Source: an uncultured Rhodospirillales bacterium
Lineage (GTDB): Bacteria; Pseudomonadota; Alphaproteobacteria; ATCC43930; CGMCC-115725
Assembly (NCBI GenBank): GCA_903828515.1
Contig: CAIKMD010000006.1
Coordinates: forward strand, 248,001 to 312,000
Reading direction: 5' to 3'
DNA length: 64,000 bases
This document shows positions 11,174 to 14,825 of the stretch, piece after piece (position 1 is the first letter of the stretch; every line of letters starts with the position of its first letter). Under the pieces are notes generated by a model, which ran no database searches, was not told the DNA's origin, and worked only from the letters and a program-made list of their open reading frames with translations. The position numbers were made by a program, and so were the translations under genes.

Positions 11174-12364
11174 CTAATCCGTCTCGAACAGGTCGGGCGG
11201 GTCGGCCCGCTTGCCGGGCATCAGATCGTGCGCGGTTATCCCGATCAGGCGGAACGCGGTGCCGTCGAGTTGGCGCAGGAGGGTGGGTGTCACCGCCGCG
11301 AGGATGATCTCCTGCTTCATCGTTGGATCATGCAGCCGGCAGGCATGGGTGCGGGTCAGGCGGTCGTGGCGCCGCAGCTTGAGCGTCAATGATCCGGCGG
11401 CGAGGTCGGCCCGCGCCAGGCGCTCGGCGACGCGGGCGCAGATTTGCTCGACCTCCGGCGCGATCTGCTCGTAGGTTCGGAGGTCGTTGGCGAAAGTGCG
11501 TTCGGCCCCGACCGTGACCGACCGGCCGCGCCCGAAGCCGACGCGGCGCTCGTCCTCGCCATGCGCCTGTTGCAGCAAGCGGCGGCCCCAGCGGCCGAAG
11601 CGATGGGTCAGTTCGTCGGCTTTCGCCTGGCGCAATTCGGCGATGGTGGTGAAGCCGAGCTGTTCGAGTTTCGCCGCGGTGACCGGGCCGACGCCGGGCA
11701 GGGCGCCGACCTTCATCGGCGCCAGCACGGCGAGCGCGTCGCTGGTGCCGATCACGAAGAAGCCGCGCGGCTTGCCCATGTCGCTCGCCATCTTCGCCAG
11801 CATCTTGTTGGGCGCGAGGCCGACCGAGATGGTGACGCCGACGCGTTTCTCGACGAGCAGCGCGAGGCGCGCCAGCGACCGCGCCGGTGGTTCGTCGCTT
11901 TCGCTATCGGAGAGATCGAGATAGGCCTCATCGATCGAGACCGCCTCGACCCGCGTCGCCGTCGCCTGCATCAGCTCGCGGATGCGCCGCGATTCGGTGC
12001 GGTATTTCTCCATGTTGGGCCGGACCACGCTGGCGTCGGGGCAAAGCCGCAGCGCATGCGCCATCGGCATCGCCGAGCGCACGCCGAAACGGCGCGCGAT
12101 GTAGCACGCAGTCAGCACCACGCCGCGCACGCTGCCGCCGACGATCACCGGTTCGTCGGCGAGTTCCGGCCGGTCGCGCTTTTCGACCGAGGCATAGAAC
12201 GCGTCGCAATCGACATGGGCGATGGCGAGCGTCGCCAGCTCGGCATGCGCGACAAGCCGCGCCGAGCCGCAGGCCGGGCATGAGTCGGGCGCCGGCATCG
12301 CGACCGGCGCGATCCGGCCGCAATCGCGACAAAGACAGTTCGGAGTCTGAGCCTTGACCTCCAT
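11174..12364 (-). CDS. dinB: DNA polymerase IV (Y-family) with N-terminal zinc-ribbon-like C4 motif
   Basis: AIAHVDCDAFYASVEKRDRPELADEPVIVGG; VSIDEAYLDLS; GLAPNKMLAKMASDMGKPRG; N-terminal CRDCG-x12-CPACG. Confidence 0.93.
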   Translation of the reverse strand: MEVKAQTPNCLCRDCGRIAPVAMPAPDSCPACGSARLVAHAELATLAIAHVDCDAFYASVEKRDRPELADEPVIVGGSVRGVVLTACYIARRFGVRSAMPMAHALRLCPDASVVRPNMEKYRTESRRIRELMQATATRVEAVSIDEAYLDLSDSESDEPPARSLARLALLVEKRVGVTISVGLAPNKMLAKMASDMGKPRGFFVIGTSDALAVLAPMKVGALPGVGPVTAAKLEQLGFTTIAELRQAKADELTHRFGRWGRRLLQQAHGEDERRVGFGRGRSVTVGAERTFANDLRTYEQIAPEVEQICARVAERLARADLAAGSLTLKLRRHDRLTRTHACRLHDPTMKQEIILAAVTPTLLRQLDGTAFRLIGITAHDLMPGKRADPPDLFETD

Positions 12365-12425: not shown

Positions 12426-12638
12426 GTGGATCGCGCGATCCTCATCGTCCAAGCGGTCGAGATCTACGGTGCGATCGGCGCCGTCGTCGCGGCGGCGTTT
12501 CTCGTTCTCGGCATCGACCGCGTCGATCCGGGCGCGCGCGGGTCTTACGCGTTTCGGCCGCTGCTCATTCCCGGCATCGTGATGCTGTGGCCCATCGTGC
12601 TGTGGCGCTGGTTCGCGCTCGAACGTTATCGGTCCTGA
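12426..12638 (+). CDS. Small membrane protein (about 2 TM)
   Basis: GTG start; VDRAILIVQAVEIYGAIGAVVAAAFLVLGI...RPLLIPGIVMLWPIVLWRWFALERYRS; first gene of a tightly packed operon. Confidence 0.6.
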   Translation: MDRAILIVQAVEIYGAIGAVVAAAFLVLGIDRVDPGARGSYAFRPLLIPGIVMLWPIVLWRWFALERYRS

Positions 12639-12645
12639 CGAAGCC

Positions 12646-12798
12646 ATGCAGCGTCTGCACCGCCAAGCTCACGCGCGCATCTGGATGGTCCTGGCGTTGC
12701 TGTTGCCGGCGATCATCGTGCTGGCCCTGGTCATTCGCCAGAACGGCCCGACCGAGGCACCGCCGGTACGGCTGAGCGCCCCCCAGGGGAGCCCGTGA
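12646..12798 (+). CDS. Small single-TM protein
   Basis: MQRLHRQAHARIWMVLALLLPAIIVLALVIRQNGPTEAPPVRLSAPQGSP*; stop overlaps the next gene's GTG start (GTGA). Confidence 0.6.
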   Translation: MQRLHRQAHARIWMVLALLLPAIIVLALVIRQNGPTEAPPVRLSAPQGSP

Positions 12799-13850
12799 GC
12801 GCCGCCTACAAGCCGGTCACCTGGAACGTGGTCAAGCTGGCCTATGACGCGGTGCTGGTGATCGCGGTCGGGCTCTACATCTATCTGTTCATTCACGTCG
12901 CGCCCGCTTATGACCGCGTGACGCTCTACGACGACGAGGGCATGACCAAGGTCGCGGCGTTCGGCAGTTGCGCCTTCCTCATGTTCACCTTCATTTTGTG
13001 CATCGGTCCGCTGGCGCGGCTCGATCCGCGCTTCCTGCCGCTGCTTTATAACCGGCGCCATTTCGGCGTGCTCACCGCCGCGATGGCGGCGATGCATGCC
13101 GAATACGTGATCGAATGGTATTTCGATTACGGCCATATGAGCCGCTGGGTCGAATTCCTGATCGGCAATACGAGCTACGGTCAGGTGCTCGGTTTTCCAT
13201 TCGAGCTGTTCGGTTTGTTCGCGCTCATCGTGCTTCTGGTGATGGCGGCGACGAGCCACGATTTCTGGCTGCGCTTTCTGACGCCGCCGGTGTGGAAGGC
13301 GATCCACATGGCGGCCTATATCGCCTATGCCAGCGCGGTCATTCATATCGCGCTCGGTCATCTGCAGTCGGCCTACAACCCCGTCTTTCTCGTCTGCTTC
13401 GTGATCGGCGTCGTATCGGTCTGCGTGCTGCACGCGTTGGCCGCGCGGTTGGACGGGCGTGTCGAGAAAAGTCCGGCGGTGGATGCGGTCGGTGCGCAAT
13501 GGGTCGAGGCCGGGCGCGTCGGCGACATCGCCGAGGGGCACGGGCTGGTGGTGGTTTTGACCGAAGGCGAACGGGTCGCGATCTTCCGCCATGGCGGCAG
13601 GCTCTCGGCGATCTCGAATGTCTGCGCGCATCAGAACGGACCGCTGGGTGAGGGGCTGATCGTCGATGGCTGCGTCACCTGTCCGTGGCACGGCTATCAA
13701 TACCGGCCCGAGGATGGCTGTGCGCCGGCGCCCTACACGGAAAAGCTCAGCACCTATCGGCTGCGTCTGGCGGGTGACCGCATCCTGCTCGACCGCCACG
13801 CCAACCCACCCGGCACCTATGTCGAGCCGGTGACGATCGGAGGCGGATGA
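12795..13850 (+). CDS. Ferric-reductase-like transmembrane domain fused to C-terminal Rieske 2Fe-2S domain
   Basis: Multiple TM helices with His-rich segments (RRHFGVLTAAMAAMH; IHMAAYIAYASAVIHIALGH), then NVCAHQNGPLGEGLIVDGCVTCPWHGYQY Rieske motif. Confidence 0.85.
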   Translation: MSAAYKPVTWNVVKLAYDAVLVIAVGLYIYLFIHVAPAYDRVTLYDDEGMTKVAAFGSCAFLMFTFILCIGPLARLDPRFLPLLYNRRHFGVLTAAMAAMHAEYVIEWYFDYGHMSRWVEFLIGNTSYGQVLGFPFELFGLFALIVLLVMAATSHDFWLRFLTPPVWKAIHMAAYIAYASAVIHIALGHLQSAYNPVFLVCFVIGVVSVCVLHALAARLDGRVEKSPAVDAVGAQWVEAGRVGDIAEGHGLVVVLTEGERVAIFRHGGRLSAISNVCAHQNGPLGEGLIVDGCVTCPWHGYQYRPEDGCAPAPYTEKLSTYRLRLAGDRILLDRHANPPGTYVEPVTIGGG

Positions 13851-14596
13851 TCATGGCCGAGGCACCGTTCTTCATCGGATGGAGCAACAAGCTGCCGCGC
13901 GCGACATTGGGATTCATGGCCATGGTTTCGGTCGCCGTGATCCTGGTGGCGGGGGCGCTGGGTTTCGCGATCGGCGCCACGGCGGTCGATCCCGGCGGCG
14001 GCGATTATACGTTCCCCGAACTCACCATGACCGGCGTGATCGCGGAGCAGCCTTATCCCATTCTGCGTATCGCGGCTGACGCGGGTCATCCGGCATCCCA
14101 TGCGGTCATGCTGTCGTCCGAAGGGACCAACGGTGCCGCGGGCACGATCGCGGGGTTGGCGGGAAAACGCGTCGAGGTTCGCGGTCTCCTCATCAAGCGC
14201 GGCGACCTCGACATGTTCGAGATCGCCGATGGCGGCGTGTCCGAACCTCAATCCGAGGCGGCGCTGCCCCCGGCTTCGGTGCCGCTCGGGCATTGGCGGA
14301 TCACCGGCGAGATTTGCGACGGCAAATGCTACACGGGCGCGATGCGGCCGGGCGCCGGCTTGGCGCACAAGGCCTGCGCCGGCATCTGCTTCATCGGCGG
14401 CGTGCCGGCGGTGTTCGTCAGTACCCGGCCGGTCGAGGGGCAGAACTTCATGTTGATGGTCGACGCCAAGACCGGGAAATTCATCGACGCCTTCCACGAC
14501 CTCGCCGCCCTGCGCATTTCGATCGAGGGCGACCTCGAACGGGTCGACGATCTGCTGGTTTTCCGGGTCGATCCCGCAACCGCAAAGGTGCTGTGA
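13847..14596 (+). CDS. Membrane-anchored protein of unknown function (possible OB-fold-like periplasmic domain)
   Basis: N-terminal TM (FMAMVSVAVILVAGALGFAIGATAV); GKRVEVRGLLIKRGDLDMFEI; ICDGKCYTG...KACAGICFIGGVP Cys motifs; ATGA overlap with upstream gene. Confidence 0.75.
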   Translation: MIMAEAPFFIGWSNKLPRATLGFMAMVSVAVILVAGALGFAIGATAVDPGGGDYTFPELTMTGVIAEQPYPILRIAADAGHPASHAVMLSSEGTNGAAGTIAGLAGKRVEVRGLLIKRGDLDMFEIADGGVSEPQSEAALPPASVPLGHWRITGEICDGKCYTGAMRPGAGLAHKACAGICFIGGVPAVFVSTRPVEGQNFMLMVDAKTGKFIDAFHDLAALRISIEGDLERVDDLLVFRVDPATAKVL

Positions 14597-14597
14597 C

Positions 14598-14825
14598 ATG
14601 GGCACGTGGCGCGATGCGCTCGGCGCGGCGGTGGTTGGCGGGACGCTGGCCTGGGGGTCCTATGCGTTGTGGTATGCGGCCCAGGATTGGACCCGGCACA
14701 CGGCGCTGGCGGATTTCCCCTATCTGGTCGGGCTGGGCGCGGTCGTGGCTTTTCTGGGCTTGGCCGAATGGTTGCTGACGGTGGGCAAAACCTGGCTGGG
14801 GCGGGGTTCCCATGGTTTGTCATAA
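14598..14825 (+). CDS. Small membrane protein (about 2 TM)
   Basis: MGTWRDALGAAVVGGTLAWGSYALWYAAQDW...FPYLVGLGAVVAFLGLAEWLLTVGK; 1-nt gap after upstream stop. Confidence 0.65.
   Translation: MGTWRDALGAAVVGGTLAWGSYALWYAAQDWTRHTALADFPYLVGLGAVVAFLGLAEWLLTVGKTWLGRGSHGLS

Follow-up and report, generated by a model that had tools for sequence, protein, structure and literature searches.

In a 64,000-nucleotide (nt) stretch of DNA from an uncultured Rhodospirillales bacterium (contig CAIKMD010000006.1, positions 248,001 to 312,000; the window), we analyzed a compact operon of five genes, here named A to E. We propose that it encodes a Rieske-coupled transmembrane electron-transfer hub that is MsrPQ-like in its logic, with protein D as the extracytoplasmic end. 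We give this reading a probability of about 0.5. The operon and the potential cofactor ligands of its proteins are conserved, the membrane part of C has a recognizable fold class, and the operon is associated with flavoenzymes that bear a Rieske domain. We infer the cofactor content, the sides of the membrane on which the domains lie, Rieske-to-Rieske transfer, the direction of electron flow, and the substrate.

Results

A conserved operon of membrane proteins

All five genes are on the forward strand. Gene A (12426-12638; 70 amino acids [aa]) has a GTG start, with a TTG codon in the same frame at 12354, and is followed by gene B (12646-12798; 50 aa). Gene C (12795-13850; 351 aa) overlaps B by the sequence GTGA, gene D (13847-14596; 249 aa) overlaps C by ATGA, and a 1-nt gap separates D from gene E (14598-14825; 75 aa). 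The original prediction, made from the DNA letters, had described five co-directional open reading frames (ORFs) with these overlaps and this gap, and we confirmed the coordinates and junctions. The same five ORFs are independently called by PGAP on Rhizobium plasmids (hypothetical/hypothetical/Rieske/hypothetical/hypothetical). Genes A, B, D, and E matched no Pfam or NCBIfam family.

Relatives of C were searched for with one genome per species. At least 584 stretches encode one, a figure that takes in Rieske-only relatives. The best 80 of these at least 584 stretches were compared as related loci, 78 of them with enough flank to judge the neighbors. A and B directly precede C in all 78. D comes after C in 78 of 78, allowing for one locus in which D is fused to C (L117) and two in which C is split in the assembly (L085 and L102). 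E was detected in 59 of the 78 and in none of the cyanobacterial, Nitrospirales, or Pseudovibrio loci. The A-B-C-D arrangement is far beyond chance. The core is formed by A, B, and C, nearly always joined by D, and E is a dispensable addition. Co-occurrence across these loci bears out the earlier claim that the small or unknown ORFs are dedicated partners. The five-gene order, whose persistence had been put forward as a check, is kept for A-B-C-D in essentially all loci and not for E.

Full-length relatives of C share 46 to 60% identity. Their main hosts are Alphaproteobacteria (Roseibium, Pseudovibrio, Rhizobium, Rhodospirillales, and metagenome-assembled genomes [MAGs] of Acetobacteraceae). 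They are also found in cyanobacteria (Adonisia, Leptothoe, and Moorena) and in one Nitrospirales MAG, where C and D form one polypeptide (L117). The distribution is patchy: D is present in 19 of 396 alphaproteobacterial genomes, and full-length C is present in 4 of 37 genomes of the window's family and absent from the one sampled genome of its genus. In a survey of 296 genomes, 14 of the 15 with a strong C match had D. A viral or mobile origin was considered and rejected; no viral contig encodes a relative, and the operon is on a few Rhizobium plasmids.

A and B are the core small membrane subunits. A has two transmembrane (TM) helices and the invariant residues G18, F25, G29, R44, P49, W55, and P56. 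B has one TM helix, with R6, H9, and W13 conserved near the N terminus. The small membrane protein E is an optional subunit, and its hydropathy scan revealed one clear TM helix and a weaker hydrophobic N-terminal stretch. The TM assignments of the original prediction hold for A (two), B (one), C (six), and D (one anchor); E had been credited with about two.

Gene C combines a STEAP/YedZ-type membrane domain with a Rieske domain

C carries a membrane domain of the STEAP/YedZ b-heme type and a C-terminal Rieske [2Fe-2S] domain, and the predicted ferric-reductase-like/Rieske fusion is thereby confirmed. Its Ferric_reduct region (PF01794; 12963-13337, residues 57-181) scored 37.5 bits against a cut-off of 28, placing C in the ferric reductase domain (FRD) superfamily. 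The homolog in L117 scored 46.5 bits. The Rieske domain (13497-13757, residues 235-321) belongs to the Rieske family by its match to PF00355 (63.9 bits). Its ligands, C277-x-H279 ... C296-xx-H299, are 97 to 98% conserved in 84 sequences.

In the 84 C proteins, H89, H101, H155, H171, H184, and H213 are 97 to 100% conserved, as the original prediction required of the TM His residues, and the set R87, H101, H171, and H184 is 98 to 100% conserved. Candidate heme ligands are H101, H171, and H184, the last of which lies just beyond the Pfam match. H89 and H155 are additional invariant His residues, and H213, further on, is near-invariant. R87 occupies the position of the first heme His of NOX, in a register set by its spacing from H101. 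In the YedZ/STEAP ligand rule, Arg replaces the first canonical heme His, and the other His residues are in TM3 and TM5 (PMC3591440). Judged against this rule, C fits the YedZ/STEAP subgroup (R87 plus H101/H171/H184). The TM part of the L117 homolog has six TM helices in an AlphaFold2 (AF2) model. Foldseek searches with this part returned STEAP4 and STEAP1 at the top (probability 1.00, E values of 1e-4 to 1e-2).

The Rieske domain of C is nearest to dioxygenase-type ferredoxins (AndAb/HcaC-like in NCBIfam; E value of 2e-10 against the naphthalene dioxygenase ferredoxin, PDB 2qpz). Loop charges predict that it lies on the cytosolic side. C ends shortly past this domain and has no catalytic-domain match, and is therefore not a Rieske non-heme-iron oxygenase. 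Pfam and NCBIfam searches found no fused FAD- or NAD(P)-binding domain in C or elsewhere in A-E, and C is not of the long NOX/FRE form. The idea that a Rieske center replaces the flavin/NAD module is right in that A-E contain no such module. It is incomplete in that flavin enzymes appear to be retained as separate, Rieske-bearing cytosolic proteins (see below). A bc1/b6f-like complex was also considered and rejected, as no cytochrome b or c match was found in A-E.

Gene D encodes a putative extracytoplasmic Cys-Met-His protein

In the AF2 model of D (predicted local distance difference test [pLDDT] of 89.6), a TM anchor at the N terminus leads into two beta domains of OB-like fold. The second of these contains an insertion with C161, M166, H174, C177, and C181, and alignment of 30 D proteins showed all five to be invariant (30 of 30). 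These residues define a signature segment (14309-14416; GE-x-x-D-x-K-C161-x4-M166-...-H174-xx-C177-xxx-C181-...-P-xx-F), in which E155 and D158 are also invariant and K160 is near-invariant. Of the Cys motifs originally pointed out, the Cys set is thus invariant, with the exception of C157, the first Cys of "ICDGKC", which is not conserved. The C-M-H-C-C set is a candidate metal or thiol redox site, and D is predicted to be extracytoplasmic. A profile search of D against PDB gave nothing better than an E value of 0.11, and Foldseek returned weak generic OB folds (SSB and LysRS), none below 1e-3. D is a new family without a Pfam, NCBIfam, or PDB match. Flavinylation of D by ApbE was rejected, since no FMN-binding domain was found; neither ApbE nor this domain was detected in A-E or in the recurrent neighbors scanned.

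Short relatives of D in other genomes keep the C-M-H-C-C pattern in 8 of 8 cases. They are about 140 to 190 aa long, mostly signal-bearing, and without a Pfam match (loci L137-L144, in genomes G302, G374, G274, G286, G238, G106, G416, and G223). They adjoin a second conserved Cys-containing protein of about 170 to 190 aa, and their other neighbors include SCO1, OpgG/OpgH, and an esterase.

The operon is linked to flavoenzymes with their own Rieske domain

Two types of enzyme that carry a Rieske domain at the N terminus are recurrent neighbors of the operon: a flavin mononucleotide (FMN) glutamate-synthase-like enzyme of about 537 aa (PF01645; Rieske-GltS) and a thiamine diphosphate (ThDP) enzyme of about 660 aa (Rieske-ThDP). 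In NCBIfam, the latter is best matched by the models for pyruvate oxidase and for ubiquinone-dependent pyruvate dehydrogenase. In L148, L149, L151, and L152, the genes for Rieske-GltS, A, B, C, D, E, and Rieske-ThDP are contiguous in this order. Full-length Rieske-GltS is encoded in 10 of the 396 alphaproteobacterial genomes, 9 of which have D (0.48 expected; Fisher test, 1.5e-12); counted by genus, the proportion is 6 of 7 (7e-8). For close GltS homologs whose match does not extend to the Rieske part, the proportion of genomes with D is 0 of 5. Rieske-ThDP is encoded in 15 of the 396 genomes, and D is present in 7 of these 15 (9e-7; by genus, 0.002). The operon is statistically linked to Rieske-bearing flavoenzymes, and this link is new here.

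A third fusion type, which joins a Rieske domain to an NADPH-dependent FMN reductase (PF03358; Rieske-FMN_red), directly follows A-B-C in genome G602. Both of its halves were found in only 2 of 44 genomes tested, G602 and the window's own. In the latter, the gene is at C6:246401-247515 (L181:1402-2516), 13 kb upstream from the operon and thus outside the window, by 0.5 kb, and it is 76% identical to the G602 gene.

In two inspected Rieske-less GltS homologs, CDGSH [2Fe-2S] domains stand in place of the Rieske domain. Judging from these sequences, the iron-sulfur module of GltS-like enzymes is swapped between CDGSH and Rieske. Fusions of CDGSH with Glu_synthase have been noted (PMC5859297). GltS-like enzymes with two N-terminal CDGSH domains are encoded at L162:5608-7137 and L163:5232-6824, in genomes without the operon. 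A single chain of 886 aa (L158:6491-9148) contains CDGSH, Fer4_19, Rieske, and a complete ThDP enzyme. The window's organism is very rich in Rieske enzymes: its 4.8-Mb genome gave 81 Rieske matches, most of them in frames whose length would accommodate a ring-hydroxylating oxygenase.

Other neighborhoods of the operon

In the window, an opposite-strand DNA polymerase IV-like gene lies upstream of the operon, and an Amidohydro_2 gene starts about 70 nt downstream. Neither recurs in the related loci. A Na+/H+ antiporter gene is a frequent neighbor elsewhere. In a second type of neighborhood, found in Rhizobium (plasmid loci L153/L154) and in genome G049 (L164:7274-17360), the operon is beside genes for a CoA-transferase III, a Rieske-less ThDP enzyme, a TPR protein, and OpgC; G049 adds esterase, OpgH-like, and OpgG-like genes. 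From this gene content, a link of the operon to osmoregulated periplasmic glucans is possible. In the window's genome, OpgC and TPR homologs are side by side on another contig.

Proteins of about 250 to 290 aa with the motif "...DDSH(S/T)xLxW..." recur beside Rieske-ThDP or Rieske-GltS (L155:5312-6142, L156:14852-15667, L157:8365-9105, and L117:8121-8993), and the three scanned had no Pfam match. Genes for extracytoplasmic function (ECF) sigma factors and/or zf-HC2 anti-sigma-like proteins are found beside Rieske-ThDP/GltS loci (L148:1940-2838, L155:4369-5312, and L160:8813-9124), a hint that these loci may be expressed under stress regulation. In the Nitrospirales MAG (L117:538-5953) and in Moorena (L115:8047-12226), the operon is near genes for a cysteine-dioxygenase-like protein, an EamA-type transporter, and a glutathione-synthetase-like ATP-grasp protein.

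Discussion

FRD proteins move electrons outward across the membrane, from the cytosol to the cell exterior. MsrQ passes electrons from the cytosolic flavin reductase Fre to periplasmic MsrP (PMC11031084). In our model, C would bind a b heme between TM3 and TM5, like YedZ/MsrQ and STEAP, and would hold its Rieske [2Fe-2S] domain at the cytosolic face. Soluble flavoenzymes (Rieske-GltS, Rieske-ThDP, or Rieske-FMN_red) would send electrons from flavin to their own Rieske center, from there to the Rieske center of C, and on to the heme. D, anchored beside C and with its C-M-H-C-C site outside the cytoplasm, would accept these electrons in the way that MsrP accepts those of MsrQ. A and B, together with E where present, would be small structural or assembly subunits. 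The model is supported by the conservation of operon and ligands, the STEAP fold, the association with Rieske flavoenzymes, the L117 fusion, and the MsrQ precedent. More tentatively, the system may work as a "Rieske bus", in which the cytosolic Rieske domain of C is a docking plug and unrelated flavoenzymes are joined to it through an acquired N-terminal Rieske domain, their electrons crossing the membrane to D, which would represent a new class of extracytoplasmic Cys-Met-His redox protein.

Several observations weigh against the proposed hub. In the AF2 model of the L117 C-D fusion, the Rieske part (residues ~215-406) has low confidence (pLDDT ~30), probably because a mixed alignment misplaced rows, and the model yields no usable C-D interface. 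Genome G602 has A-B-C without a recognized D alongside. Rieske-GltS is missing from 10 of the 19 D-positive genomes, and the window's genome contains neither Rieske-GltS nor Rieske-ThDP. In the present assembly, a change of frame separates the two domains of its Rieske-FMN_red gene, which may be broken or mis-sequenced. Conversely, genome G779 has Rieske-GltS and Rieske-ThDP and lacks D. Finally, the presumed outward direction of electron flow rests on analogy. Given the window's genome and G779, one flavoenzyme partner can be exchanged for another, and what recurs is the presence of a Rieske domain on the flavoenzyme. As an obligate partner, Rieske-GltS was dismissed in the case of the window, whose genome does not encode it.

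Among other explanations, a role in envelope maintenance overlaps with the proposed hub in how it accounts for D. Electrons supplied by the heme protein would let D hold thiols or copper outside the cytoplasm in the reduced state, in the service of repair or metal delivery (a MsrPQ-, DsbD-, or SCO-like role) and in connection with the periplasmic glucan layer. This would suit the likeness of the C-M-H-C-C motif to soft-metal or thiol sites, the SCO1 or OpgG/OpgH genes beside short D relatives, the OpgC, CoA-transferase, ThDP, and TPR genes that adjoin D operons in Rhizobium and G049, and the ECF sigma/zf-HC2 pairs beside some partner loci. However, these neighborhood links are patchy, none adjoins the operon in the window's own genome, and D has neither a thioredoxin fold nor a known copper chaperone domain. 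We regard this explanation as somewhat doubtful.

It is rather unlikely that the system is a quinone-linked dehydrogenase hub, in which Rieske flavoenzymes oxidize amino or 2-oxo acids and C feeds the resulting electrons into the quinone pool, leaving D and the small subunits with a structural or protective role instead of that of electron acceptor. The best models of the ThDP partner would agree with such a hub, MsrQ has been described as a quinone-binding subunit (PMC8238504), the extra conserved His residues of C (H89, H155, and H213) could form a quinone site, and one genome does have A-B-C without a recognized D. Yet D accompanies C in nearly all genomes of the survey, its potential redox motif is invariant, and the two proteins are fused in L117, all of which suggests that the role of D is functional and not decorative.

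Reverse flow would bring quinol or periplasmic electrons via the heme to the cytosolic Rieske domain for reductive chemistry, such as glutamate formation by Rieske-GltS, and could be driven by the membrane potential. GltS-type enzymes normally consume electrons, the [3Fe-4S] Cys motif is kept in all 31 Rieske-GltS copies examined, and the Na+/H+ antiporter gene often adjoins the operon. This direction is nevertheless quite improbable: the pyruvate-oxidase-like and FMN reductase partners belong to types that produce electrons, those of ubiquinol would have to travel uphill, which is unfavorable, and Rieske-GltS lacks the amidotransferase domain of GltS. Least credible of all is a ferric-iron reductase for iron uptake, suggested by the Pfam domain name and the STEAP fold similarity, because no iron transporter is among the recurrent neighbors, the partners are central-metabolism flavoenzymes, and the Pfam name reflects the superfamily only.

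The proposed hub can be compared with several known systems. MsrPQ (YedYZ) likewise has a six-TM FRD protein with the YedZ-type ligand pattern, and it delivers cytosolic flavin-derived electrons to a periplasmic partner (PMC11031084), as we propose by analogy for A-E. A genomic hint that C may be reduced by a flavin reductase, as MsrQ is, comes from the Rieske-FMN_red gene next to A-B-C in G602. In contrast to C, MsrQ is without a Rieske domain, and MsrPQ has no counterparts of A, B, and E. The partner there, MsrP, is a periplasmic enzyme with molybdopterin; D instead has two OB folds and a Cys/Met/His motif and matches nothing in Pfam or NCBIfam. The STEAP metalloreductases give the best fold matches of the TM part of C and share the Arg that replaces the first heme His, but STEAP2-4 have an N-terminal NADPH domain, and here a C-terminal Rieske domain is combined with separate Rieske-bearing flavoenzymes. 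MsrQ-like flavinylated systems also pair a PF01794 protein with a gene for an extracytosolic electron carrier; theirs involve ApbE and proteins with FMN-binding domains (PMC8238504), and D has no such domain. The nearest relatives of the Rieske domain of C, the dioxygenase Rieske ferredoxins (NDO-F, BphF, and AndAb), are free soluble carriers between reductase and oxygenase, whereas in C the Rieske domain is tethered to a heme membrane protein.

Domain model M4 of Zhang et al. 2013 (PMC3591440) contains an FRD with Rieske as the electron-transfer agent, and its legend lists FMN too. M4 gives an architecture only, without operon, partners, or function, and it is by architecture that we liken it to C. 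The complex had been called novel and uncharacterized; no paper on its operon was found, but the FRD-Rieske architecture was already listed as M4. No paper was found that gives a role to the FRD-Rieske fusion or describes A, B, D, E, or the link to Rieske flavoenzymes, a provisional result because subscription papers were mostly outside the search. Searches for the fusion turned up no functional study of this arrangement, in line with the earlier statement that no assigned function was known for it. The system is best filed as a variant of the FRD systems for electron transfer across the membrane, in which D represents a new family.

FRD proteins number in the thousands in bacteria, yet a 2024 paper names MsrQ as the only prokaryotic member whose physiological function has been clearly identified (PMC11031084). 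The operon described here is a conserved FRD system that spans several phyla, and it offers identifiable partners in the cytosol as well as a dedicated extracytoplasmic one that belongs to a new family. The function of another FRD branch thereby becomes directly testable. If the Rieske domain of C is indeed a plug, unrelated flavoenzymes would be wired to one membrane hub via the same added iron-sulfur module.

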